From: Catenuloplanes atrovinosus
GTDB taxonomy: Bacteria; Actinomycetota; Actinomycetes; Mycobacteriales; Micromonosporaceae
NCBI RefSeq assembly: GCF_031458235.1
Contig: NZ_JAVDYB010000001.1
Location: forward strand, 8,519,001 to 8,583,000
Direction of reading: 5' to 3'
Length of the DNA: 64,000 nt
Numbering within the stretch: position 1 is the first letter of the stretch; each line of letters starts with the position of its first letter. The notes below the pieces were generated by a model that saw only the letters and a list, made by a program, of their open reading frames with translations, was not told the origin of the DNA and ran no database searches. Shown piece by piece: positions 4,884 to 42,783 of the stretch. The position numbers and the translations under genes were made by a program.

Positions 4884-6098
4884 TCAGCTACCCGTTCGGG
4901 CCGTGGGCAAACCCGCCGCGAGGGGCGGTTGTGCGCGTTCCATCATTCGCGACACGGACAGGACGAGCAGGCCCGCGACGGAGAGAACCGCGCCCACCCA
5001 GGCGGTGGAGAGGTATCCGTACCCGGCCGCGATCACGACGCCGCCGAGCCAGGCCCCGGCCGCGTTGGCCAGGTTGAGCGCGGAGTGGTTGGAGCTGGCC
5101 GCGAGCGCGGGCGCGTCCGGCGAGGCCGCCATCAGACGCATGGTGAGCGCGGTGCCGATGACCTGGCAGGCCACGCCGATCAGGAAGATCAGCAGGACCG
5201 CGGCCGGGATCCAGGCCGCGGTGGTGGCGAAGAGCACCAGCACGGCCAGCATGCCGATCATGCCGCCGAACAGCGTACCCATGATGGAGTGGTCGGCCAG
5301 CCGGCCGCCGAGCAGCGTGCCGGCGGTCATGCCGACCCCGAAGACCGCCAGCACCCACGGCACGCCGGCGGCCGGCAGGCCGCTGACCTCGGTGAGCGTG
5401 GGCGAGACGTAGCTGTACACCGCGAACATGCCGCCGAACCCGACGATGCCGGTGACCAGCGCGAACCACACCTGCGGGCGGCGGAACGCGCCCAGCTCGG
5501 TGCGGATCGTGGCGTGCGCGGCGGCCGGCACGCGCGGCACCAGGAAGTGCACCGCCACCATGGTCAGCGCGCCGATCGCGGCGATCAGGCCGTACGCCAG
5601 GCGCCAGTGCACGTGCTGGCCGACCGCGGTCGCGGCCGGCACGCCGATGATGTTGGACACGGTCAGGCCCATCATCACGCCGGCCACCGCGCGGCCGGCC
5701 CGCTCCGGCGCGACCAGGCGCGCGGCCACCACGGACGCGATGCCGAAGTACGCGCCGTGCGGCAGCCCGGCGATGAACCGGGCCAGGTAGACCAGTGGCG
5801 CGTTCGGCGCGATCGCGGAGAGGCCATTGCCGGCCAGGAACGCGACCATCAGGCCGAGCAGCAGCAGCTTCCGGTCCAGCCTGGCGGTGAGCGCGGTGAT
5901 CAGGGGCGCGCCGACGACCACGCCGAGCGCGTACGCGCTGATGCCGTACCCCATCTCCGGGATGGAGACGTGCAGCGTGGCGGCCATCTCCGGCAGCAGC
6001 CCCATGGCCGCGAACTCGCTGGTGCCGATGCCGAAGCCGCCGAGCGCGACGGCGGTCAGCGCGATGCCGACCCGGCCTGATCTGATCTCCCCACCCAT
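4884..6098 (-). CDS. MFS transporter, DHA1-type drug/arabinose-efflux family
   Basis: 404 aa with about 12 hydrophobic helices. The N-terminal half has the DHA1-type signature GIGTSEFAAMGLLPEM, and the loop LTARLDRK matches motif A between TM2 and TM3. The family exports small molecules by proton antiport across the plasma membrane; the substrate cannot be read from sequence. It is divergent from the lipase gene (156 bases between starts). The kinase gene follows on the same strand. Confidence 0.85.
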   Translation of the reverse strand: MGGEIRSGRVGIALTAVALGGFGIGTSEFAAMGLLPEMAATLHVSIPEMGYGISAYALGVVVGAPLITALTARLDRKLLLLGLMVAFLAGNGLSAIAPNAPLVYLARFIAGLPHGAYFGIASVVAARLVAPERAGRAVAGVMMGLTVSNIIGVPAATAVGQHVHWRLAYGLIAAIGALTMVAVHFLVPRVPAAAHATIRTELGAFRRPQVWFALVTGIVGFGGMFAVYSYVSPTLTEVSGLPAAGVPWVLAVFGVGMTAGTLLGGRLADHSIMGTLFGGMIGMLAVLVLFATTAAWIPAAVLLIFLIGVACQVIGTALTMRLMAASPDAPALAASSNHSALNLANAAGAWLGGVVIAAGYGYLSTAWVGAVLSVAGLLVLSVSRMMERAQPPLAAGLPTARTGS

Positions 6099-33966: not shown

Positions 33967-34062
33967 TTACGCGGTGAGCGCGGCGAGGTGCGCCTTCACC
34001 TGAATGATCGACGGGTTGGTGAGCGCGGAGCCGTCCTCGAACCGCACGGTGGGCACGGTCTG
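33967..34062 (-). pseudogene. mrx1: severed C-terminal fragment of mycoredoxin (original 3' end)
   Basis: 32 codons ending in TAA. The translation runs QTVPTVRFEDGSALTNPS... and ends AALTA. It continues the TVPTV (cis-Pro) motif of glutaredoxin-type proteins and fits the DGS.LTNPS ending I recall for mycobacterial Mrx1. It has no start: the frame runs straight into the integrative element at 34055-34062. The N-terminal part of the same gene is 8.45 kb away at 42504-42658. This is the left junction (attL). Confidence 0.85.
34055..34062. other. attL core
   Basis: ACGGTCTG shared with 42504-42511. To its left is chromosomal mycoredoxin sequence, to its right element sequence leading into the integrase gene. 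Confidence 0.75.
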
Positions 34063-34075
34063 TAGAGTTGCCCCA

Positions 34076-34096
34076 CTGGCTGAGGTGATCAGCCAG
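34076..34096. promoter_or_regulatory. 8-bp inverted repeat just upstream of the integrase gene
   Basis: CTGGCTGA (34076-34083) and TCAGCCAG (34089-34096) are perfect reverse complements around GGTGA, ending 5 bases before the integrase ribosome site. A possible operator or an attP arm site; no more can be said. Confidence 0.4.
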
Positions 34097-34111
34097 CAAG
34101 GGGAGGAACCA

Positions 34112-35830
34112 TTGAACAAGCCAAGAGCCCTGGGTGTCGTCCGCCTCTCGGTCTCGAACGAGAACCAGACGGGCGAGGAGACACAGCGTAGGCGCATCAC
34201 GAAGAGGGCCGAGAGCGACGAGATGGAGATGGTCGGCTGGGCGGTCGACATCGACGTCTCCGGCTCCACGTCGCCGTGGATGCGTCCGTCCATCGGTAAC
34301 TGGCTCACGAACCGCAAGGACGAGTTCGACCACATCATCGTCTTGAAGATCGACCGGATCGCTCGGTCGGTCCGCCACCTCACGGAGCTGATGGAGTGGT
34401 GCTCGAAGCACGGCAAGGGCCTCATCTCGTGCGAGGAGGGCTTCGATCTGTCCAAGCCGTGGGGGAAGGTGGTCGTCCAGATCCTCGCGGTTGTGGCGGA
34501 AGCTGAGCTGGACGCGATCACCGCACGGATCAGAGCTTCGCGGGAGGCGATGCGGCAGCAGGGACGGTGGCCAGGCGGTCTGGTTCCGTTCGGCCGACGG
34601 TCCGTGAAGGGCTCAGACGGCTTCACGCTGGAGCTTGATCCCGAGTACGGTCCCGTCCTCAAGGAGATGATCCGGCGATTCATCGACACGCCCAGCTTCT
34701 CGGGGGTGGCGCAATGGCTCAACGAGCAGGAGATCCCCACGGTCCAGGACATCGCTCGTCTCCGGTCGGCCAGAGGTGAGAGCACGACGCGTCTGATCGC
34801 TCCGGAGGCCAGAGGCAGGAAGTGGCTGCCGAACGCGGTTCAGGCGATCCTCACCAACCGGTCTCTCCTGGGCGAGTACCAGACGGCCGATGGTTCCGTT
34901 CTGCGAGGTGACGACGGCGCACCCATCATGAGATCGCAGCCGGTCCTCGGCATGGAGGAGTGGGCCGTCCTCCAGGACGCGGTGAACTCCGTGAAGTACA
35001 AGAAGCCGCGAGGGTCATCCTCCGCCCTGCTCGGAGTCGCGTTCTGCCTCACGTGCGGCAATCCCCTGTACTTCACGAAGGCGGAGCCGGCCCGTAGCAG
35101 AAAGGCGCGATACCGATGCCATGGCAACAAGAGCAAGGGGCAGCCAGCGTGCAAGGGTGCGGCGCTCACTGCGGAGCGCCTGTACGCGTGGCTGGAGGAG
35201 TTGCTTCTCATACAGATCGGCGACCTGGAGATCATGGAGTCGGTCACGAAAGCGGGTGACGACGAGCAGGCCCGCAAGCTCGCGATCATCGACGGCGAGA
35301 TGAACCAGCTCACGAAGGAGTTCCGGGCTGGTCGCCTCGAAGCAGTGGCCTACGCCTCCCAGGTTGCCCAGCTTGCCAACGACCGGGAGCAGGCGTTGAA
35401 GGCCGGTAAGGCCAAGCCGGTGACCCAATGGGTCCCAACAGGGGAGACCTACGGCAACTGGTGGAAAAGGTCAACCGAGGAGGAGCGGCGGGAGTTCCTG
35501 ACCAGGCGTGGGTTCAAGGCGTATGCCGGTATGGGCTTGCTCGTAATCACTCCCGGGGATCTGCTTGGCTTCCTTGAGCAGCGTCAAGCAATCAGTTTCG
35601 GTGACGTGCCTGCCGAAGCCTTCGGTAAGCCGCATCTCTGGTGGGATAGAGGCGATTATGAGACCCTCGAAGAGGCGAAGGACAAGCTTTACGCCTCGGG
35701 CTTCTTCACCCGGTTCTTTCAGGACCTGCCAGCCGATGCGCCACGCGCGATCATTGATGTAAGCGATAACCTTTACCTGCCTCGGAATAGCGAATCCGAC
35801 GCAATCGCAGATACCCGCTTGTCGAGTTAG
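34112..35830 (+). CDS. int: large serine recombinase (phiC31-type integrase)
   Basis: 572 aa. Start TTG at 34112, placed by GGGAGGA at 34101-34107. Catalytic domain RALGVVRLSVSNENQTGEE with nucleophile Ser13 and downstream KIDRIARSVRHLTELMEW; then the recombinase domain, a zinc ribbon (CLTCGNPLYF ... YRCHG ... ACKG), a coiled-coil segment (about 400-450) and a long C-terminal region. This enzyme class integrates DNA at short attB/attP sites without host factors. The gene begins about 50 bases from attL, the standard position. Codon use is less GC-rich than the chromosome. Confidence 0.92.
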   Translation: MNKPRALGVVRLSVSNENQTGEETQRRRITKRAESDEMEMVGWAVDIDVSGSTSPWMRPSIGNWLTNRKDEFDHIIVLKIDRIARSVRHLTELMEWCSKHGKGLISCEEGFDLSKPWGKVVVQILAVVAEAELDAITARIRASREAMRQQGRWPGGLVPFGRRSVKGSDGFTLELDPEYGPVLKEMIRRFIDTPSFSGVAQWLNEQEIPTVQDIARLRSARGESTTRLIAPEARGRKWLPNAVQAILTNRSLLGEYQTADGSVLRGDDGAPIMRSQPVLGMEEWAVLQDAVNSVKYKKPRGSSSALLGVAFCLTCGNPLYFTKAEPARSRKARYRCHGNKSKGQPACKGAALTAERLYAWLEELLLIQIGDLEIMESVTKAGDDEQARKLAIIDGEMNQLTKEFRAGRLEAVAYASQVAQLANDREQALKAGKAKPVTQWVPTGETYGNWWKRSTEEERREFLTRRGFKAYAGMGLLVITPGDLLGFLEQRQAISFGDVPAEAFGKPHLWWDRGDYETLEEAKDKLYASGFFTRFFQDLPADAPRAIIDVSDNLYLPRNSESDAIADTRLSS

Positions 35831-36467
35831 TCGATGCGTTATGGGCTCTCTTCGGAGAGCCTATAACCGTCTATATGCGCTTCCTTCATGGCTCAGGCTT
35901 GGCTCGGGTGTTATATCAATATTCCGGGCGGCGGGCTTTTCCTTCGCTGGTTATCGGATATTACCCAGAAGCCCCCGTAGGGGGTCATTGGCAGCTATGC
36001 GGCTAAACCGTAAACGGCTATAGCGGCTATGGAGCTGAAATTGTAAACGGTTGGCTGGGTTAACGGTAAGCGGCTAAACCAGCTTTGCAGTAGAAGACCC
36101 CGTAGGGGTCTATACAAAGGGTAAACAGCATAACTGCGAAGCAGTTATTCCGGTTTCGCACGCGCGCGAGGCCGCAGGTTTGGGCTGGTCGAGGGTGGGC
36201 TGGAGGGTCGGATCGCCGCTCTCGACATCCGCCACCGCCTCAGCGGCCTTCTGGCGTGCTGGGTGGGTCTACCCTAGACCCGGGTACCCTCCAGGCTCGT
36301 TCGGGCCGCAGCGTGGATCTCAGGCCCCCTGGCGACCCCGTCATGATCTTCGGTGGGGGCGTCGGTAGCCAACTCTTGAGCATACCGCCGTCGGTCCCTG
36401 CTGAGCAACCAGGGTGCTCCGCGCTGAGGGTCTTCTGTCGGCACATTGCTTTGCCGCAGACGTCGGG
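35831..36467. other. gene-free AT-richer region of the element with hairpins and short repeats
   Basis: About 640 bases between the integrase and the kinase gene. It holds a terminator (35838-35867), perfect hairpins AGACCCC-GTA-GGGGTCT (36095-36111) and ATAACTGC-GAA-GCAGTTAT (36130-36148), and short direct repeats: CGGCTAAACC at 36000 and 36071, GTAAACGG at 36010 and 36043. The cluster looks like an origin, transfer or protein-binding region rather than coding DNA. From about 36180 to 36467 the sequence is more GC-rich and I see no gene with a ribosome site. Confidence 0.5.
35838..35867 (+). terminator. integrase terminator
   Basis: 13-bp stem with one G-T pair (35838-35850 / 35855-35867) and a TTCG tetraloop, 7 bases after the integrase stop. 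Confidence 0.75.
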
Positions 36468-37271
36468 TTAGCAACGTAGCCGGAATGCCTCCCATTCGGC
36501 CGAGGCGTCAACCATGCGCTCGGTCCAGGGATCTGTGCTGCCCTTGCCGATATGAGACCATAGCCTCGCGTTTGCTGTTGCAAACTCGTTGAGTCCTTCG
36601 GCTGTCGCCATTTGCCATGTCGGCACTTTGCTTGCCCAGCGTTCGGCCGAGGGTGGCTGATGCCCGGATGCGATAAGCCAAATTACCCAGTAGGCGGCAT
36701 CGAGCCATGGGGCACCTCGGGTGGCCCATCCCCAATCAACGATCCGAGCTTTCCCTTTGTATACGATGATGTTGGCGTTGTTAAGATCGGTGTGCAGTAG
36801 GGAGTCGCCGATGAAGTGGTGAACGCTACCGGGGCGAACGTAGGCTTGAAGTCGCTGGCCGGCATCCCGCAACTCAATGTCCGGGCGCGGGATTTCGCTC
36901 ATCTGGGTTAAGAGGTCGACGACTACCGGGACATGAAATGAGCTGGGGCTGTAATCGGCCACGCTGCCTTGCAACATCTCGAAGACGAGTACGTCCCAGC
37001 CGTCTTTCACGACTCGCCCATGAAGCTTCGGCGCAACTGCGTGCACGTGCGGCGCGACTTCGGCTTCTCTTGCCTGCGTCCATGACCATCGGTCGCCGGA
37101 TCGGAGCGCCTTGACGAAGAAATGCCCCTTGGCGCTCGCCAGTTTCACCCCCACCGCGCTGTTGAAGCCTTCGGCTACCGGCTCAACGGTGATCGGGGTT
37201 CCTGTGATCTGCTCAATGGCGGCACGGGTCCCTACGGGCAGGGCGTCATACGAGACTCGATGAACTGACAT
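36468..37271 (-). CDS. APH-family phosphotransferase in the putative RiPP operon
   Basis: 267 aa. Start ATG 37271 preceded by AGGAAG. Aminoglycoside-phosphotransferase/choline-kinase fold: Lys54 in FFVKAL, catalytic loop HTDLNNAN (160-167, Asp162 as base), and metal-binding VDWGWA with Asp179. The family transfers phosphate from ATP/GTP to small-molecule hydroxyls; the substrate is unknown. It is the last gene of the set radical SAM, peptide, kinase on the minus strand, separated from the peptide gene by 80 bases with a 9-bp hairpin. It could modify the peptide product or confer self-protection; both are inference. Confidence 0.82.
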   Translation of the reverse strand: MSVHRVSYDALPVGTRAAIEQITGTPITVEPVAEGFNSAVGVKLASAKGHFFVKALRSGDRWSWTQAREAEVAPHVHAVAPKLHGRVVKDGWDVLVFEMLQGSVADYSPSSFHVPVVVDLLTQMSEIPRPDIELRDAGQRLQAYVRPGSVHHFIGDSLLHTDLNNANIIVYKGKARIVDWGWATRGAPWLDAAYWVIWLIASGHQPPSAERWASKVPTWQMATAEGLNEFATANARLWSHIGKGSTDPWTERMVDASAEWEAFRLRC

Positions 37272-37294
37272 GTGAACTTCCTGGTCGACCGGAT

Positions 37295-37331
37295 GGCCCT
37301 GGGACGTCTGGCACGACAACGCCCCAGGGCC
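37295..37331 (-). terminator. hairpin between the peptide gene and the kinase gene
   Basis: 9-bp perfect stem GGCCCTGGG / CCCAGGGCC (37295-37303 / 37323-37331), beginning 21 bases after the peptide stop on the minus strand. No T tract follows. It may attenuate or stabilise the transcript 3' end so the peptide is made in excess of the kinase. Confidence 0.4.
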
Positions 37332-37351
37332 TTACCGGGTTGTGGCCGTGC

Positions 37352-37516
37352 CTAGCGGTAGGGGTTGTCGTCGCCGCAACCGCGCTGGTTGCCGCCGGTC
37401 AGGTCGTCGATCTGCGTGATGACGACCCCGGTGGGCTCCGGCGCGGGCACCGAGCGGATCACGGTGCTGAGCGCCTGCTGCGGGCGGCTGATGATCTCGA
37501 CCGGGACGGGGCTCAT
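37352..37516 (-). CDS. candidate RiPP precursor peptide, 54 aa
   Basis: 54 aa. ATG 37516 overlaps the stop of the radical SAM gene (ATGA) and has an excellent AAGGAGG site. The first part looks like a leader (MSPVPVEIISRPQQALSTV, then a Pro/Ala hinge VPAPEP and VVITQIDDL). The C-terminal part has a compact core-like stretch TGGNQRGCGDDNPYR with the only Cys (Cys47), a GG at 41-42, and a terminal Tyr-Arg. A tiny gene translationally coupled to a SPASM radical SAM enzyme is the hallmark of a ribosomally made, modified peptide. I do not recognise the core from any named class. Confidence 0.75.
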   Translation of the reverse strand: MSPVPVEIISRPQQALSTVIRSVPAPEPTGVVITQIDDLTGGNQRGCGDDNPYR

Positions 37517-38637
37517 GAAGCCTCCTTCATGCCGTGCTGACAGTAGTGACTGAGTGGAGCCTTCGCCTCCTGGTACACCCGTGCCATGGGTCGGCATACC
37601 CGGCAGGTGGATGAGAGCTTGCAGCCCGTGCATCCACCTGTGCGAAGCATCTGGGCGTCTGCGATGCCGGGCAGACGCAATAGCCCTTGCGGGCCTTCGG
37701 TGATCAAGCTGATGGGGTTGTCCCGGCCGACCTTGCACATCGTCGCGAAACCGTGCGGGTCGACGTGGAACGACGTGTGTCCCGCCGGGCAGCCCTGGAA
37801 GACATCGCTCTTGCCGATCAGGTCGGGAACCTGCGCAGCGAGCGTCGAACCCTTGCCGGTGTAGGTCGGCGAGATGGAGGCGTACTCCTTGAACCGCAGG
37901 CCGAGATCTCGCACCATCGCTCGCATCTCGTCCAGCTCGGCGACGTTGTGCTTGGTGATGATCAGGGTGACATCGACGGGAAGCCCGGCTTCAGCCGCCG
38001 CGACGAGCCCGCGATAGGCGTTCTTGAACGCCCCTCGTGTCTGCGTCAGGGCGTCGGCGGTCTCCGGGCTTGCCCCGTACATCGACACGGTGATCTTGTG
38101 CGGCTGACGCCTTCTGAACGCGTCCAGCAGGTCTTCCCGGTGGAGGCGGGAGCCGTTGGTCAAGATCTCCATCATCATCCCGGCCGCGTGGGCCCGCTCG
38201 TACGCAGGCACGAAGTCCGGGTCGATGAGCGGTTCGCCGCCGGTGATCTCAAACCAGATCACGCCCATGTCGCGCAGCATGTCGATCAGGCGAAGCTTGT
38301 CCGCGAGCGGTAGTCCGGCGAAGGGCCGTTGTTCGAGGTAGCAGTGCTCACAGGAGAAGTTGCATCCCTTGTTGATCTCCCATGAGGCGCGGCTGTACGT
38401 GACCGGCAGGACCGACGGTGGCCGGACCACAAGCGCCTCATTGACCGGGCGCGCCGCCAGGTCCAATCCCCACGCCTGTCGCGCTACCTCGGCGAACCAG
38501 CCGGGCGTGACCGCGTTCTGATCGGCCAGGTTGGCAAGCTCGGCGTAGTACCTGGAGGGAAGCTGCATAGCCGCGTTCTGACCCGCCCGGACAGCGATGA
38601 ACTTGTCCTCCTGCGGACTGACGATTGCCTGGTACAT
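37513..38637 (-). CDS. radical SAM / SPASM-domain peptide-modifying enzyme
   Basis: 374 aa. ATG 38637 has AGGAGG upstream; a longer frame lacks a site. Radical SAM cluster motif C92-NFS-C96-EH-C99, then ITGGEPLIDPDF (GGE motif). The C-terminal SPASM domain has seven cysteines: C283, C301 (with G296, the CX9-15GX4C pattern), C336, C339, C345, C348, C366, enough for two auxiliary 4Fe-4S clusters. About 80 residues precede the barrel and might bind the leader peptide. Such enzymes form thioether, C-C or C-O links in peptides using S-adenosylmethionine. It overlaps the 54-aa peptide gene by 4 bases. Confidence 0.92.
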   Translation of the reverse strand: MYQAIVSPQEDKFIAVRAGQNAAMQLPSRYYAELANLADQNAVTPGWFAEVARQAWGLDLAARPVNEALVVRPPSVLPVTYSRASWEINKGCNFSCEHCYLEQRPFAGLPLADKLRLIDMLRDMGVIWFEITGGEPLIDPDFVPAYERAHAAGMMMEILTNGSRLHREDLLDAFRRRQPHKITVSMYGASPETADALTQTRGAFKNAYRGLVAAAEAGLPVDVTLIITKHNVAELDEMRAMVRDLGLRFKEYASISPTYTGKGSTLAAQVPDLIGKSDVFQGCPAGHTSFHVDPHGFATMCKVGRDNPISLITEGPQGLLRLPGIADAQMLRTGGCTGCKLSSTCRVCRPMARVYQEAKAPLSHYCQHGMKEAS

Positions 38638-38675
38638 CGGTCCTCCTGTCCTGGTCAGTGGTGGCGCGTGAGCGC

Positions 38676-38717
38676 GGGCGGGCGTGACGGGGGCGGGGGC
38701 ATCCGCCACGCCCGCCC
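38676..38717. repeat. 11-bp hairpin upstream of the radical SAM gene
   Basis: GGGCGGGCGTG (38676-38686) and CACGCCCGCCC (38707-38717) flank a 20-nt loop, in the 130-base gap between the small CxxC-protein gene and the radical SAM gene. Could weakly separate transcription of the two. Confidence 0.4.
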
Positions 38718-38767
38718 ACTCCCGTCAGGAGGGCCGGCTCATGACGGGCTTCGAGAGGGCTCGGATT

Positions 38768-39049
38768 TCAGCGGGAGGTCGCGTCGACCAGGCGGTTAGG
38801 CGTTCGGGGAATCCAGCCCATGAACCGAGGCCAGAAGTCGATGTCGGCGAGCTTGGGGTGCCGGACCGCATCCGCGATGGCTTCATGCATGTGGGCTGCC
38901 ATGTACATCCGGAGTAGGAGCCGTGAATGCCGGAAGGTCCTCAACAGCGCAGCGCGTCTCTCCTCGCACGGCCACGCCTGACCACAGCTCGACACCTTGC
39001 ACGTCCAGCCGGGTCGCGAGGGAGCGTGGAGAGTCGCTGTCTCAGCCAC
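38768..39049 (-). CDS. small protein with paired cysteines (often labelled 'flavin reductase' in actinomycete elements)
   Basis: 93 aa. Start GTG 39049 with GGAGGAG upstream. N-terminal RPGWTCKVSSCGQAWPCEERRAALL contains C-x4-C-x5-C, typical of a short Streptomyces family with the pattern W.C..C...WPC, and the C-terminus ends in the FMGWIPR motif often seen there. Databases often call these flavin reductases, but no flavin-binding motif is visible. It is transcribed toward the radical SAM gene, divergent from the HTH-PRTase gene. Confidence 0.65.
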   Translation of the reverse strand: MAETATLHAPSRPGWTCKVSSCGQAWPCEERRAALLRTFRHSRLLLRMYMAAHMHEAIADAVRHPKLADIDFWPRFMGWIPRTPNRLVDATSR

Positions 39050-39335
39050 CGGTTCTCCTCCTGACCGTTGCCGCCCGCCGCCCCTCGCTCGGATGCTGAG
39101 AGCGGCGGGCGGGGCACTGGTGTGTCGATGAGGTGCCTCGACGCGAAAACGATCGCATCTGCGCAAGCTCGGACACACCTCTGTGGTCGGTCATGGACGA
39201 TCGGATCTGTGTGTAGGGCTGAGCTGCGGATACGCCCATGATCGATGCGGCTTGCCCATTCGAGTGGGCAACAGTAGCGTGGCCGTCACGACCGGTGATG
39301 ACGGATGGCTCGGCATCGGTGACGGAGAGGCCGGA
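39050..39335. promoter_or_regulatory. divergent control region in the element, with a promoter for the HTH-PRTase gene
   Basis: 286 bases between divergent starts. On the plus strand TTGCCC (39252-39257) and TAGCGT (39275-39280) are 17 bases apart, a good -35/-10 pair, 56 bases before the ATG at 39336. The minus-strand promoter for the peptide operon must also lie here but I cannot place it. Confidence 0.5.
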
Positions 39336-40469
39336 ATGGGCGCAGCGGCACAACGCAGCCAGTCCCCGCAGGCGCGCGGACGAGAGCTGGCACGGCAGGG
39401 CAAGGATCTCTACATCGAGTTCGGGTCGGTCAGCGCCGCCGCTCGCGAGCTGATGAACCGGCACCAGGATCTGCCCAGCATCCAGGCACATCGGTACGCG
39501 GCGGGGCTGTCACAGGATCAAGCCGCAGCCCGGTACAACACCGTTGCCGGTAATCAGACGACTCTTGGTGGAACGACCATCAACGCGTGGGAGAGCTGGG
39601 CGCGAGCGCGGGGAAGCGCGGGAGCCGGATCGCCACCGTCGTTCGCCAGTCTGCTGATCCTCGCGACCGCGTACGGGCGTGGCCCGCATGGCACCGCAGA
39701 CGAGACCATCTCGCCGAGTGACCTTGTGCAAGAGGCGTACGAGAAGCTGGCTCCCGAGGACCAACTCGCGCTGAAGAGCGTGGCCGCTCGTCCCTCCATG
39801 ACCGCCACCAGCGACGCGCTCCAGCCGCGTAACGCCGTCGTCGGCGGGTCGCCGGGCGTGGACAACATCATCGGGCCGGACTTCAACCTCCAGGCGCCTA
39901 CGATCGACAACGGGAATCCAGCCATCTGTGCGTTCTCGTTGCCCAACCCGAATCCGGGCCAGCTACTCGATCTCACCTGGAACACGTTCGGCTTCGGCGT
40001 CCAACGCCTGATGAAGCAGATCAAGAGCCTCGGACGACGGCTCAACGCCGACATCTGCTTCGGGGTCAACGAGGCGGGTCTGGTGATGGCGACCTTCCTC
40101 GCCTCAGCCCAGTTCAACCGGTCCGCTATCGGGTACCTCCGGTGCCACCGGGTGAAGAACGAGGTGACCTTCACCAAGGAGTCCCACTACCCGGAGACGG
40201 TCGAAGCGCCAGTCATCGTCATCTGCGACTTCGAGGTGAAGCACGCGGACGTGGTGGGCTTGGTGGCGCGTGAGCTGCGAGCCCGCTACCCGGGAGCGGA
40301 ACTGTACTTCGCCGTCTTCGGCGCGATGACGAAGGGCAACTCGTTGGAGGTAGAGAGCTTCGACGATCTGACCGGAGCGACGATTATGAAGGCCGCTAAC
40401 TTCGAGGCCGTATTCATCGCCGCGACCATGAGCCCACCCGGCATCGAACCACCGCTTGAGCTGCGTTGA
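39336..40469 (+). CDS. HTH protein fused to a phosphoribosyltransferase-like domain
   Basis: 377 aa. ATG 39336 follows GGAGAGG; the frame is open further upstream without a ribosome site. The N-terminal part (about 20-120) has an HTH-like helix set (ELARQGKDLYIEFGSVSAAARELM ... GLSQDQAAARYN, broken here). The C-terminal part (about 200-375) resembles a type I PRTase: ICFGVNEAGLVMATFLAS, then VIVICDFEVKHADVVGLV where PRPP-binding loops normally read DD..TTG. The acidic pair is reduced, so it may bind rather than convert PRPP. A ligand-sensing regulator of the cluster is one reading. Confidence 0.62.
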   Translation: MGAAAQRSQSPQARGRELARQGKDLYIEFGSVSAAARELMNRHQDLPSIQAHRYAAGLSQDQAAARYNTVAGNQTTLGGTTINAWESWARARGSAGAGSPPSFASLLILATAYGRGPHGTADETISPSDLVQEAYEKLAPEDQLALKSVAARPSMTATSDALQPRNAVVGGSPGVDNIIGPDFNLQAPTIDNGNPAICAFSLPNPNPGQLLDLTWNTFGFGVQRLMKQIKSLGRRLNADICFGVNEAGLVMATFLASAQFNRSAIGYLRCHRVKNEVTFTKESHYPETVEAPVIVICDFEVKHADVVGLVARELRARYPGAELYFAVFGAMTKGNSLEVESFDDLTGATIMKAANFEAVFIAATMSPPGIEPPLELR

Positions 40470-40486
40470 CCGTTGGAGAGGCACTG

Positions 40487-41416
40487 ATGGATCAAGCCAG
40501 GAACGTTCCCCCGCAGGCCATGAAGATCGCCGAGATGGTCAGGTCGGTGATGCTGGAACTGCGACCCCGCCTCGTAGAGGCTGCGCTGACCGGCCGGCGG
40601 GGCGAGAGCGAGAACCTGCGCCACGCGGACAACTTCCTGTCTGAGCACGACCTGTGGATGCACCAGCGTTACCGGGAACTCCTCACCCCTGTTCTCGGCA
40701 CGTTCGTCTACGCATCGGAGGAAGCAGAGCCGGAGGTGATCGGCGACGACCCCGATCCTGATCTGTGCGTGCTGGTGGACCCGCTCGACACGAGCGAACT
40801 CGCCGTGCGGGGTGTGCTCGGCTACACGCACGTCATGGTCTACTCGCGTACTGCGGCCCAACCGGTGATCGCCGTTGTCGGCGACATCTTCCACCACCTT
40901 CAGCTCTACGTCGGCGCACGGGATGAACAGGGCATCGACCGAGCCTTCGTCGTGACCGCAGATGGCGAGACCTACGAACTCGGTCCGCGTCCACCAAAGC
41001 GGCTCGCCGAGTCGATGGTGACCAACTTCCTGATGAAGCCGGGTGAACGCTTCCTCCCGCTCTCGCAGAAGACTCAGCTCATGAACACCCTCGACGAGCC
41101 GTCAGAGGACGGCAAGAGCCGGGGACGTATCGGCGTGGACTTCGGCTCCGTCAGCCTCTGTCACGTCGCCGCAGGCATGACCGAGGCCGTCATCGAGTTT
41201 GCCAAGGGCTTCGCCGTCTGGGACCTCGCGCCAGGCCACTACATCCTGCACGCCGCCGGAGGAACCGTGCTCGACCTGGACGGCGCTCCCGTACCGCTCG
41301 ACTATCGCTTCGGCTCGTTCGACGAGATCACCAAGGCCATGGACCGGCGACAGCGGTTCGTCGCTGCGGGAAGTAGCGAACTAGCGGCGGAAATTGTCAC
41401 TGCGCTTCGCTCCTGA
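40487..41416 (+). CDS. inositol-monophosphatase-like (FIG superfamily) phosphatase
   Basis: 309 aa. ATG 40487 with GGAGAGG upstream. Metal-binding elements are recognisable: E78-E79 in YASEEAE, DPLDTS at 98-103 (DPxD pattern), and W245-D246 in AVWDLAPGHYILHAAGG. This superfamily removes phosphate from inositol, sugar or nucleotide (PAP) monophosphates using Mg2+. 17 bases after the HTH-PRTase gene, so in one operon. Together with the kinase in the opposite operon it suggests a phosphorylated intermediate; that is inference. Confidence 0.78.
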   Translation: MDQARNVPPQAMKIAEMVRSVMLELRPRLVEAALTGRRGESENLRHADNFLSEHDLWMHQRYRELLTPVLGTFVYASEEAEPEVIGDDPDPDLCVLVDPLDTSELAVRGVLGYTHVMVYSRTAAQPVIAVVGDIFHHLQLYVGARDEQGIDRAFVVTADGETYELGPRPPKRLAESMVTNFLMKPGERFLPLSQKTQLMNTLDEPSEDGKSRGRIGVDFGSVSLCHVAAGMTEAVIEFAKGFAVWDLAPGHYILHAAGGTVLDLDGAPVPLDYRFGSFDEITKAMDRRQRFVAAGSSELAAEIVTALRS

Positions 41417-41715
41417 CGGAGGCATTTGACCAGCTCAGGGGTTGTGCAGGCTCGTTCTAACCCGTTCAGAAAGACTCTGAAACTGTGGCGGAATCTGAGC
41501 TGCTATTACCTGCCGGTCCTCGGATGAAGGCGTTAGGGGTCATACCCCCACCCTCATGTGCAGGCAAACGTCCTGCTCGGAGGGTGTTCAAAAACGAAGG
41601 ATTATGAGACGGCTCTGCCGGAGGGCTGAGCGAGGCTGAGACCTTGTCCATAACCCGTCTCGAAACGTGGCTTGCGGGCTTGATGTTTCGAGACGAGTTA
41701 TGAGACAGTCTGTGC
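41417..41715. other. intergenic region before the resolvase gene
   Basis: About 300 bases, AT-richer than the chromosome. It contains two copies of TTATGAGAC (41602-41610 and 41698-41706) and a long inverted repeat (41649-41702). No open frame with a ribosome site. Confidence 0.5.
41649..41702. repeat. 18-bp inverted repeat upstream of the resolvase (candidate res/crossover site)
   Basis: Arms 41649-41666 and 41685-41702 match at 17 of 18 positions (CATAACCCGTCTCGAAAC / GTTTCGAGACGAGTTATG), separated by 18 bases. The right arm ends 14 bases before the resolvase ATG. The outer half-site TTATGAGAC recurs at 41602. Position and symmetry fit a binding site for the serine resolvase or its own operator. 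Confidence 0.6.
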
Positions 41716-42309
41716 ATGGCGATACCCGCTGGCGTCGGCCAGCTCATTGGATATGCCCGTGTCTCCACCAATGCACAGGACGCACAGCTACAGCGAGACG
41801 CACTCGCTGAAGTCGGGTGTGCCCGGGTCTTCGAGGACAAGGCGAGCGGCAAGAACACCGACCGCGTGGGCCTCGCTGCCGCGTTGGACTATGCGCGGCC
41901 TGGCGACACCCTGTGCGTCTGGAAGTTGGACCGTCTCGGTCGTTCGGTGAAGGACGTTCTCACCATCGCGGACGATCTCCATGGGAGGGACATCGGGCTG
42001 CGCATCCTCACCGGCAAGCTCTCCGGGGTCTATACGCCTACCGGTGAGGGCAAGTTCTTCTTCACCATGATGGCCGCCTTCGCGGAGCTGGAGCGTGACA
42101 TCATCCGCGAGCGCACCCGCGCGGGGCTGGATGCCGCGAAGGCTCAGGGGCGGACCGGCGGGCGGCCAACGGTCGTCAATGAAGACATCTTGACGGTTGC
42201 GCGCGCTCGGCGGGCGAAGGGTGAGAGCGTCAACTCCATCGCCAAGGTGCTGGGAGTCTCGCGGGCGACGCTGCATCGGCACCTCGCGGAGCCCGCAGAG
42301 GGGCACTGA
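41716..42309 (+). CDS. small serine recombinase (resolvase/invertase family)
   Basis: 197 aa. Catalytic N-terminus LIGYARVSTNAQDAQLQRD with nucleophile Ser17, then VWKLDRLGRSVKDVL and the E-helix AFAELERDIIRERTRAGL. C-terminal HTH GESVNSIAKVLGVSRATLHRHL. It lies at the right end of the element, about 200 bases from attR, opposite to the large integrase. Likely roles are resolution of element dimers, inversion of a segment, or an excision aid. The inverted repeat upstream is its candidate target. Confidence 0.9.
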   Translation: MAIPAGVGQLIGYARVSTNAQDAQLQRDALAEVGCARVFEDKASGKNTDRVGLAAALDYARPGDTLCVWKLDRLGRSVKDVLTIADDLHGRDIGLRILTGKLSGVYTPTGEGKFFFTMMAAFAELERDIIRERTRAGLDAAKAQGRTGGRPTVVNEDILTVARARRAKGESVNSIAKVLGVSRATLHRHLAEPAEGH

Positions 42310-42394
42310 GCCGCGAGCCTGCGACACGGGGAGGCCGGTTGTCGACCGTCCGCGTACCGCAGGCTCAGGCGATCTCAGGTCTGTCGAGCTGCGA

Positions 42395-42658
42395 TCAAGC
42401 GACCGGAGCCGTACCCGCGATGGCTTCCTTGACTTGCTTGATCGTCGGGTTTGTCATTACGATTTCGCTTCCGCCAGTTGGGGGAACAATGCGGACCGTG
42501 GGAACGGTCTGGTTGCCGCCGTTCACGCCGCGGACGAACGCGGCCGCCTCCTCGTCCGCCTCGATGTCCACCACCCGGTAGCCGATGCCCTCGCGGTCGA
42601 GCTGCGACTTCAGGCGGTGGCAGTAGCCGCACCAGCTCGTCGAGTACATGGTCAACAT
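42395..42658 (-). CDS. mrx1: hybrid mycoredoxin (glutaredoxin-like) with element-encoded C-terminus
   Basis: 87 aa. Start ATG 42658 with GAGGAG upstream (another ATG at 42676). Active site C10-GY-C13 and the cis-Pro motif TVPTV. Actinobacterial mycoredoxin reduces mycothiol mixed disulfides on proteins. Residues 1 to about 50 are outside the element; from about Q50 the sequence crosses attR and the last third (from VRIVPPTGGSEIV...) comes from the element, keeping the TNP motif of the original tail. The native tail remains as a fragment at 33967-34062. The AT-richer codons from 42395 to 42490 fit foreign origin. Confidence 0.87.
   Translation of the reverse strand: MLTMYSTSWCGYCHRLKSQLDREGIGYRVVDIEADEEAAAFVRGVNGGNQTVPTVRIVPPTGGSEIVMTNPTIKQVKEAIAGTAPVA
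42504..42511. other. attR core
   Basis: ACGGTCTG, identical to 34055-34062, inside the QTV codons of the hybrid mycoredoxin. Element sequence lies to the left, chromosomal sequence to the right. Confidence 0.75.
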
Positions 42659-42783
42659 CGCAGGCTCACTCCTCATGGCAGACGCTGGTCACCCGATCAT
42701 CACCCTCAACCAGCGATGATGTGCGGATAATCCCGCGCCCGGCGTGCGGTCGCGGCGCCGATCATGTCCTAGGCTCGGACGCC

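Follow-up and report, generated by a model that had tools for sequence, protein, structure and literature searches.

What does a radical S-adenosylmethionine (SAM) enzyme make when its gene runs directly into that of a 54-residue peptide, with a kinase gene behind, and what are these genes doing on a mobile element? The cassette that raises this question lies in the genome of Catenuloplanes atrovinosus (RefSeq assembly GCF_031458235.1), within a stretch of 64,000 nucleotides (contig NZ_JAVDYB010000001.1, positions 8,519,001 to 8,583,000) that we call the window and to which all coordinates refer. A sequence-only reading of the window had seen in the cassette the architecture of a ribosomally synthesized and post-translationally modified peptide (RiPP). 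Our comparison supports that architecture, with a precursor gene beside the modifying enzyme in 103 of 103 loci and RiPP maturases among the structural matches of the enzyme. We think it reasonably probable that the cassette represents an apparently unnamed RiPP family in which a Cys of the core becomes crosslinked by radical chemistry to an Asp or Asn (Asx), the peptide being modified further by a kinase or a GNAT-family acetyltransferase, and that it travels here as cargo of a mobile element.

The cassette and its precursor peptide

The three genes are transcribed from the minus strand in the order enzyme, precursor, kinase. The gene of the radical SAM/SPASM peptide maturase (374 residues, 37513..38637) starts with the ATG at 38637 and stops at 37513-37515. 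The precursor gene (54 residues, 37352..37516) begins inside this stop, and the overlap, ATGA, is found in AAGGAGGCTTCATGA with a perfect Shine-Dalgarno sequence (AAGGAGG) ahead. By all appearances of the sequence the two genes are translationally coupled, as had been proposed. The kinase gene also follows where the sequence-only reading had placed it; it is listed as an open reading frame (ORF) at 36468..37319, and alignment with relatives makes the ATG at 37271 its likely start. The genome holds one copy of the peptide. A promoter scan found no promoter and an Rfam scan no family, and the two terminator-like sites detected both lie within the enzyme gene, where shuffled sequence gives 1.5.

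Relatives were sought with the enzyme alone as query, and the region directly behind each enzyme was then inspected. The 103 loci compared comprised 80 from genome contigs (the best 80 of 270 relatives), 15 viral contigs, seven plasmid records and phage Success. In all of them a small ORF with a conserved C-terminus was found directly behind the enzyme, 100 by pattern and three with variant ends recognised on reading, outside the pattern search. A lack of homologous peptides beside related enzymes had been named beforehand as the outcome that would speak against a RiPP system, and the opposite was found. Over these loci the ending is C-x(1-3)-[DNE]-[DSN]-x-P-[Y/H/F/N]. In the 9.5 million frame-bases of these loci we met the motif plus stop 103 times where it was expected and nowhere else, so that the small ORF is not a chance reading frame. 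The motif with its stop is found once in the 64-kb window and is absent from nine locus records (eight distinct places) around other radical SAM genes of this genome, which represent 8 of its 18 other PF04055 matches. When 50 locus records obtained by searching the family and the class (partly the same places) were added, a precursor was called in 150 of 153, and the spacing C-x(1-3)-[DEN] between the Cys and a possible Asp, Asn or Glu acceptor was present in as many (150/153). The three without a call are two at a contig edge and one rearranged: no precursor can be read in L030, which is rearranged, or in L033, which runs to the end of its contig, and L172 shows GCGDDNPYR at the contig end, where the stop is not reached.

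Taking the first in-frame start codon near the end of the enzyme gene as the start, the precursors called are 38 to 74 residues long. Two forms of core prevail, GC[G/N/S]DDNPY[R/N/Q], to which the window belongs, and [K/E/M]C[S/N]C-x-[A/S]-GDDNP[H/Y/F/N]. Common to nearly all cores are a Cys, a D, E or N one to three residues later, a second D, S or N, a Pro two residues on and a Y, H, F or N after it, and most cores end at the Tyr or His or one residue past it. The one or two Cys lie at the very C-terminal end of the precursor; a Cys occupies the same position in every precursor read, and the Asx residues and the Pro are about equally conserved. The compact core proposed earlier thus stands in its conserved part, roughly RGCGDDNPYR, while its TGGNQ part varies. 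The ratio of nonsynonymous to synonymous differences (pN/pS) was 0.31 in the last nine residues vs 0.81 in the rest (8 sequences) and 0.36 vs 0.70 (16 sequences) in two length classes with non-independent pairs; a third class (4 sequences) had no synonymous core differences. The core appears from these figures to be under stronger constraint than the leader. The leader has its own conserved features: under a loose pattern, a VxVEI-like N-terminal motif (VPVEI in the window) is present in 93 of 94 distinct homologous precursors, and a DxxExL-like motif in 87 of 94. The leader-binding domains of RiPP enzymes, RiPP recognition elements (RREs), usually dock on the region where the VxVEI-like motif sits. 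We have therefore, in one cassette, a precursor conserved together with its enzyme and divided into a leader and a more constrained core. NCBIfam, Pfam, PHROG and PADLOC contain no family that matches the window peptide, and PHROGs none that matches the peptide of phage Success, so within the four libraries searched the description of the system as unclassified holds. Among the titles listed in literature searches, which cover no subscription journals, none concerned such a cassette, and searches on the core motif met only three unrelated papers on cancer.

Between the precursor stop and the kinase start there is an RNA hairpin with a 14-bp stem and a 9-nt loop (37295..37331, minus strand; -36.2 kcal/mol with flanks, z -3.25). 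Most relatives have a hairpin in this position. The 70 nt after the precursor stop had z below -2 in 113 of 125 loci vs 7 of 125 random places, and perfect arms of at least 7 nt were present in 104/125 loci vs 94/635 random places. Since the hairpin is retained in all three loci that have no third gene, it more likely ends or protects the message of the enzyme and the peptide, or dampens what lies downstream, than belongs to the third gene.

The maturase and its predicted chemistry

The window enzyme has exactly ten Cys in its 374 residues, as had been counted from the sequence. Three form the CX3CX2C cluster motif (C92/C96/C99). The SPASM-type C283, C301, C336, C339, C345 and C348 are found in 51/51 aligned proteins, and C366 in 50/51 with one row gapped, so that nine of the ten are present in every row and the tenth in 50. 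The last spacing in the window enzyme is CX2CX5CX2C, and its whole Cys pattern fits 46/51 rows; the textbook SPASM motif ends CX2CX5CX3C. There is no Cys outside the cluster motifs. The protein divides into an RRE-like N-terminus (residues 1 to ~75), a radical SAM barrel (~83-255) and a SPASM region (~283-366). Its structural model has a mean predicted local distance difference test score (pLDDT) of 81.2 and is poor in 254-282 and 332-345. Residues 1-70 are modelled as three strands followed by three helices, the order that PMC8326336 gives for an RRE. The best solved structural match is SkfB (E 8.3e-17), then BlsE, which is not a RiPP enzyme, SuiB and CteB (structure 5why), with modest TM-scores of ~0.5-0.6; SuiB and CteB are within the top seven, with long alignments to RRE-bearing enzymes, and the fold also resembles EpeE.

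At the level of sequence families Pfam recognises the Radical_SAM domain, and 54 NCBIfam families match at E<=1, the top one being mycofactocin maturase (TIGR03962) with 87.7 bits vs a cut-off of 265; PqqE is also among the matches. The labels mycofactocin, heme b/d1, StsB, AlbA, PQQ (pyrroloquinoline quinone) and WgkB were rejected, all being far under their cut-offs among the best 25 of the 54 families. A viperin (pVip) defence gene was rejected as well: the PADLOC pVip models match only the radical SAM core (residues 85-243, 56.5 bits), and the cassette has seven SPASM Cys, a precursor gene and an APH-fold kinase.

We propose that the enzyme would bind the leader of the 54-residue peptide through the RRE-like domain and, by 5'-deoxyadenosyl radical chemistry, would link the core Cys to the following Asp or Asn of C-x(1-3)-[D/N]-D-N-P, most likely by a ranthipeptide-like thioether. 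Precedents are available: PapB joins the Cys sulfur to the Asp C-beta in CX3D and also accepts CX0D to CX6D (PMC9413430), and NxxcA links Cys23 to the preceding Asn20 by a thioether (PMC8326336).

Of the named systems the ranthipeptides (freyrasin/PapB, SCIFF/CteB, NxxcA) are like the cassette in having a SPASM maturase and a core Cys near Asp or Asn; their N-terminal leader-binding domain has an RRE-like counterpart in the cassette enzyme, and one cassette class shows the exact CX3D spacing (CSCDAGDD). The cassette is unlike them in its one or two C-terminal Cys in place of multiple repeats, in the DxNP[Y/H] sequence and in a kinase or GNAT as third gene, and a thioether to the beta or gamma carbon is here a prediction. 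The sactipeptides (SkfB, AlbA) provide the best structural match, SkfB, but the enzyme is far below the NCBIfam cut-offs of AlbA and StsB, and the alpha-carbon thioether of this class would be hypothetical here. Mycofactocin precursors end in CGVY. The cassette shares with mycofactocin (MftC) and PQQ (PqqE) the best sequence family and a peptide that ends near a Tyr, whereas the enzyme reaches a third of the cut-off, there is no CGVY ending, and no mft or pqq companions were present in the annotated neighbourhoods seen. SuiB, the streptide maturase, has the RRE plus SPASM fold found among the best matches, but the Lys/Trp pair that characterises the streptide core is missing from the cassette core.

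The third gene

The third gene codes for a kinase in 63/103 loci and for a GNAT in 37/103; of the remaining three, L113 and L044 carry neither gene and L074 is truncated where its contig stops. The model of the window kinase (pLDDT 97.1) has the fold of the aminoglycoside phosphotransferases (APH), and its best seven structural matches include APH(3')-IIa and corramycin phosphotransferase, with the choline kinase LicA second. The active-site K, HTDxxxxN and DW residues are invariant or nearly so among relatives, the kinase thus showing both the APH fold and its catalytic signature (K, HxDxxxxN, D(W)); PF01636 is reached at E<=0.01 by only 15 of 36 members. The likeness to self-resistance and small-molecule kinases (APH(3'), corramycin phosphotransferase, LicA) is therefore one of fold and catalytic residues, and the difference is that this kinase is coded beside a peptide maturase and that its substrate is a prediction. 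One cassette (L163/L184, G529) has both a GNAT and a kinase, and its third-gene frames look broken into overlapping pieces.

The hairpin sets the third gene apart from the enzyme and the peptide. The product of this third gene, which is an APH-fold kinase in the window and in many relatives a GNAT, would be the next to modify the peptide. For the kinase the probable target is the Tyr of the core, whose phosphorylation would either finish the product or keep it harmless in the carrier cell. In 127 distinct full-length enzymes, counted as distinct proteins and not as independent events, the 87 cassettes with a kinase (two of them also with a GNAT) all have Tyr at the last core position (87/87), and the 38 with enough flank and no kinase have His in 27, Phe in 5, Asn in 2 and Tyr in 4; L074 and L172, at contig ends, were left out of both counts. 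Among the cassettes with neither third gene, L044 and L180, with a single-Cys core, end in Phe and L113 keeps Tyr. On the tree the kinase changes only 4 times and the Tyr only 3 times, numbers too small for a test to reach significance, and we therefore regard the link between kinase and core Tyr as suggestive.

Several observations weigh against the scheme of a thioether crosslink followed by phosphorylation. With so few changes on the tree the independent-pairs sign test was not significant, and in L138, beside L129, Tyr has become Phe with neither relative having a kinase. The SPASM region has low confidence in the model, no sequence profile supports an RRE in the N-terminal region, and identity to SkfB, SuiB and CteB is 13-16% at TM-scores of only ~0.5-0.6. 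The best single sequence family is still that of mycofactocin, far under its cut-off. In the Asn precedent, NxxcA, the acceptor stands before the Cys and not after it. Lastly, no gene for an exporter or a leader peptidase is a recurrent neighbour of the cassette, either in the 103 loci or in the ORF clusters present in at least 10 of 85 loci (five cluster members being named by Pfam), so that the product has to be taken as acting inside the cell or as exported by the host. An S66 peptidase, a Zn protease, an MFS protein and a metalloprotease are annotated near single loci (1/103 each, the source locus itself), and a phage membrane protein was found near the cassette in 3/103.

Alternative readings and neighbouring genes

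The third gene could have another purpose. The crosslinked peptide might be toxic, a competition or addiction weapon of the element, and the kinase or GNAT might inactivate it in the carrier. Kinase and GNAT are the two classic folds of antibiotic-inactivating enzymes (APH and the aminoglycoside acetyltransferases, AAC), two kinases of that kind stand among the best seven structural matches, the hairpin separates the third gene from the other two, and the cassette is carried by a phage, plasmids and the island of the window. On the other hand, there is no recurrent exporter or uptake gene, two cassettes carry both enzymes, and L044, L180 and L113, which have enough flank and neither enzyme, would leave their carrier unprotected. 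We retain this immunity function as a possibility, a good deal less probable than the tailoring of a crosslinked peptide.

Somewhat less likely still, the enzyme might change a single residue in place of making a crosslink, by epimerisation, hydroxylation, backbone cleavage or decarboxylation at the Asp or Asn. The Asx residues and the Pro are about as conserved as the Cys, and the fold resembles those of EpeE and BlsE. Epimerases of the EpeE type use a thiol donor Cys, and since the window enzyme has no Cys to spare an EpeE-like mechanism is argued against. Against this reading stand also the Cys found at the same place in every precursor read and the thioether precedents of SPASM enzymes with a core Cys near Asp or Asn, NxxcA and freyrasin (PMC8326336 and PMC9413430).

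The genes upstream of the cassette bring in a third alternative, namely that the modified peptide is a signal. Unbiased clustering of ORFs was carried out in the 85 loci with 3.5 kb on both sides. It recovered the radical SAM enzyme (85), the kinase (51) and the GNAT (32), plus their shadow frames, and a divergent gene upstream in 32/85 loci, in kinase and GNAT cassettes alike (e.g., L098:5777-7129), that codes for a helix-turn-helix (HTH) protein with weak tetratricopeptide repeats (TPR). Among 29 aligned members 20 match HTH_31 and 16 match TPR_2, the TPR scores being mostly under the Pfam cut-offs. The family profile weakly matches TPR stretches of RapJ, NprR and RapH, alongside unrelated TPR proteins. 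Five Streptomyces-group genomes contain 56 such genes in 38.8 Mb, from which less than one would be expected upstream of the 85 loci. The gene thus appears beside the cassette far above chance, the enrichment being rough as the loci are related. When HTH genes of six query kinds were sought within 4.5 kb upstream, 54 of 94 loci had one.

Such a regulator might read the modified peptide in the manner of the RRNPP family (NprR, Rap, AimR), the third enzyme tuning or switching the signal. AimR is the RRNPP-type regulator of phages, in the arbitrium system. In favor of this are the single divergent regulator family upstream of these cassettes and its weak resemblance to RapJ, NprR and RapH. But TPR scores that mostly fall under the cut-off are uninformative about a peptide ligand, 53/85 loci are without the regulator gene, and the divergent gene of the window itself (39183-40469) shows no TPR and no library hit. 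No exporter or importer was found either, and the kinship of the loci makes the enrichment approximate. We consider this signalling role rather unlikely.

Two other genes recur upstream, a NUDIX gene in 20/85 loci and a HATPase_c_2 gene in 21/85 (examples of the two at L058:5416-6030 and L087:6840-7412), labels that come from one member each.

It is more doubtful yet that the peptide is only the scaffold of a small molecule, as in mycofactocin or PQQ, with the C-terminal Tyr region attacked, cut out and phosphorylated or acylated. In favor of this are the two sequence families (mycofactocin maturase as best NCBIfam match, with PqqE also found), the position of the Tyr or His at or next to the end of most cores, and LicA as second structural match of the kinase. 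But the 87.7 bits are a third of the 265 required, the companion genes of these pathways were absent from the annotated neighbourhoods seen, and His, Phe or Asn replaces Tyr in some cassettes. That the small ORF has a product of regulatory or structural function, or one that serves the enzyme as an accessory subunit, is most improbable, given that its last residues are the most constrained, that it is 38-74 residues long and coupled to the enzyme in the window, and that the enzyme matches RiPP maturases in structure, even if the leader half is conserved too (93/94 and 87/94).

Returning to the crosslinked and further tailored peptide, a broader picture can be drawn tentatively. This may be a RiPP family of phages and islands whose core Tyr is phosphorylated by a dedicated kinase resembling those of antibiotics; loss of the kinase might have freed the Tyr to become His, Phe or Asn, a GNAT often substituting. 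Its field of action might be the mobile elements found in actinomycetes: the modified peptide would be a weapon for which kinase and GNAT are interchangeable immunity modules, or else a signal that phosphorylation or acylation switches and the HTH/TPR regulator reads, in effect an arbitrium based on a modified peptide. The short synthesizable core and the need for one enzyme and one peptide leave the family open to reconstitution. The exchange of kinase and GNAT offers a direct test of whether the folds of antibiotic inactivation serve RiPP tailoring or immunity, and the cassette on a phage of Streptomyces lividans makes it testable in a laboratory strain whether the cassette plays a part in phage signalling or in the conflicts of phages with hosts or with other phages.

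The integrated element

The earlier claim that the cassette is carried by an element was confirmed by empty sites. In two congeners (G047 and G006) the sequence corresponding to window position 34062/34074 is joined directly to 42491/42497. The element has ~8.45 kb (34055..42511) with an identical 8-bp ACGGTCTG at 34055-34062 and 42504-42511. A repeat search gave nothing useful for the ends, which were defined from the empty sites. Insertion has taken place inside the QTVPT codons of a mycoredoxin (glutaredoxin-like) gene. The element provides this gene with a substitute 3' end (gene parts at 33967-34062 and 42395-42676), and the displaced original 3' end is a remnant at ~33967-34062, on the far side. 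In G067, a close relative, the element occupies the identical position. In a third congener, G084, there is no cassette, and between the flanks a 140-nt stretch matches window 41277-41416 (L158, around 5168-5307), perhaps what a related element, or an earlier one, left behind.

At the left end of the element there is a large serine recombinase (34004..35830, plus strand; listed ORF start, the true one being probably further in), and at the right end a small resolvase/invertase-type recombinase (41716..42309, plus strand). Between them, besides the cassette and a short ORF next to it, two overlapping plus-strand genes diverge from the cassette, coding for an HTH plus phosphoribosyltransferase-like protein (39183-40469; read by eye, with no significant library hit) and a protein of the inositol phosphatase family (40466-41416). 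Homologues of the short ORF, the HTH protein and the phosphatase were found upstream of the cassette in 4/103 loci, and of the resolvase in 1/103; in L051 (Actinoplanes flavus) both recombinases are near the cassette. One of six recombinases tested was within the flanks in only 10/103 loci. Mobility is thus evident for the element of the window and follows from the replicon in the phage, viral contigs and plasmids; for most of the chromosomal relatives the recombinase count (10/103) does not show it. In phage Success, whose host is Streptomyces lividans, the enzyme, a 38-residue peptide and the kinase are genes 3, 2 and 1 at one end of the genome.

Distribution and sampling

Cassettes of this kind, whose peptides have closely similar endings, are found in many actinomycetes and also on some plasmids, viral contigs and a phage. 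At the level of the family (E<=1e-20) a relative of the enzyme was present in 26 of 300 genomes, at that of the class (E<=1e-60) in 17 of 394 and at that of the phylum in 6 of 396, these six all belonging to the same class; each count includes the genome of the window. These searches draw on sampled genomes, and the locus sets of the family, class and contig searches overlap. Seven of the eight plasmid records with 80% coverage were taken, two of them from one strain, and a search at the DNA level gave no new useful plasmid record. One record (L046, NZ_LT559118.1), listed as 'plasmid I', is a Nonomuraea replicon of 11.85 Mb that, given its size, is probably a chromosome. Near-copies exist among the loci (L129/L130; L135/L136/L137/L141). 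In L030/L038 (G145) the enzyme gene is split into two parts that lie on different strands with a few hundred bases between them, the arrangement that an inversion would leave. Besides this rearranged case, seven genomes have two matches to the enzyme each: five (G051, G173, G399, G461 and G480) have two long ones at different positions, and G203 and G529 have a pair in which one match is partial.

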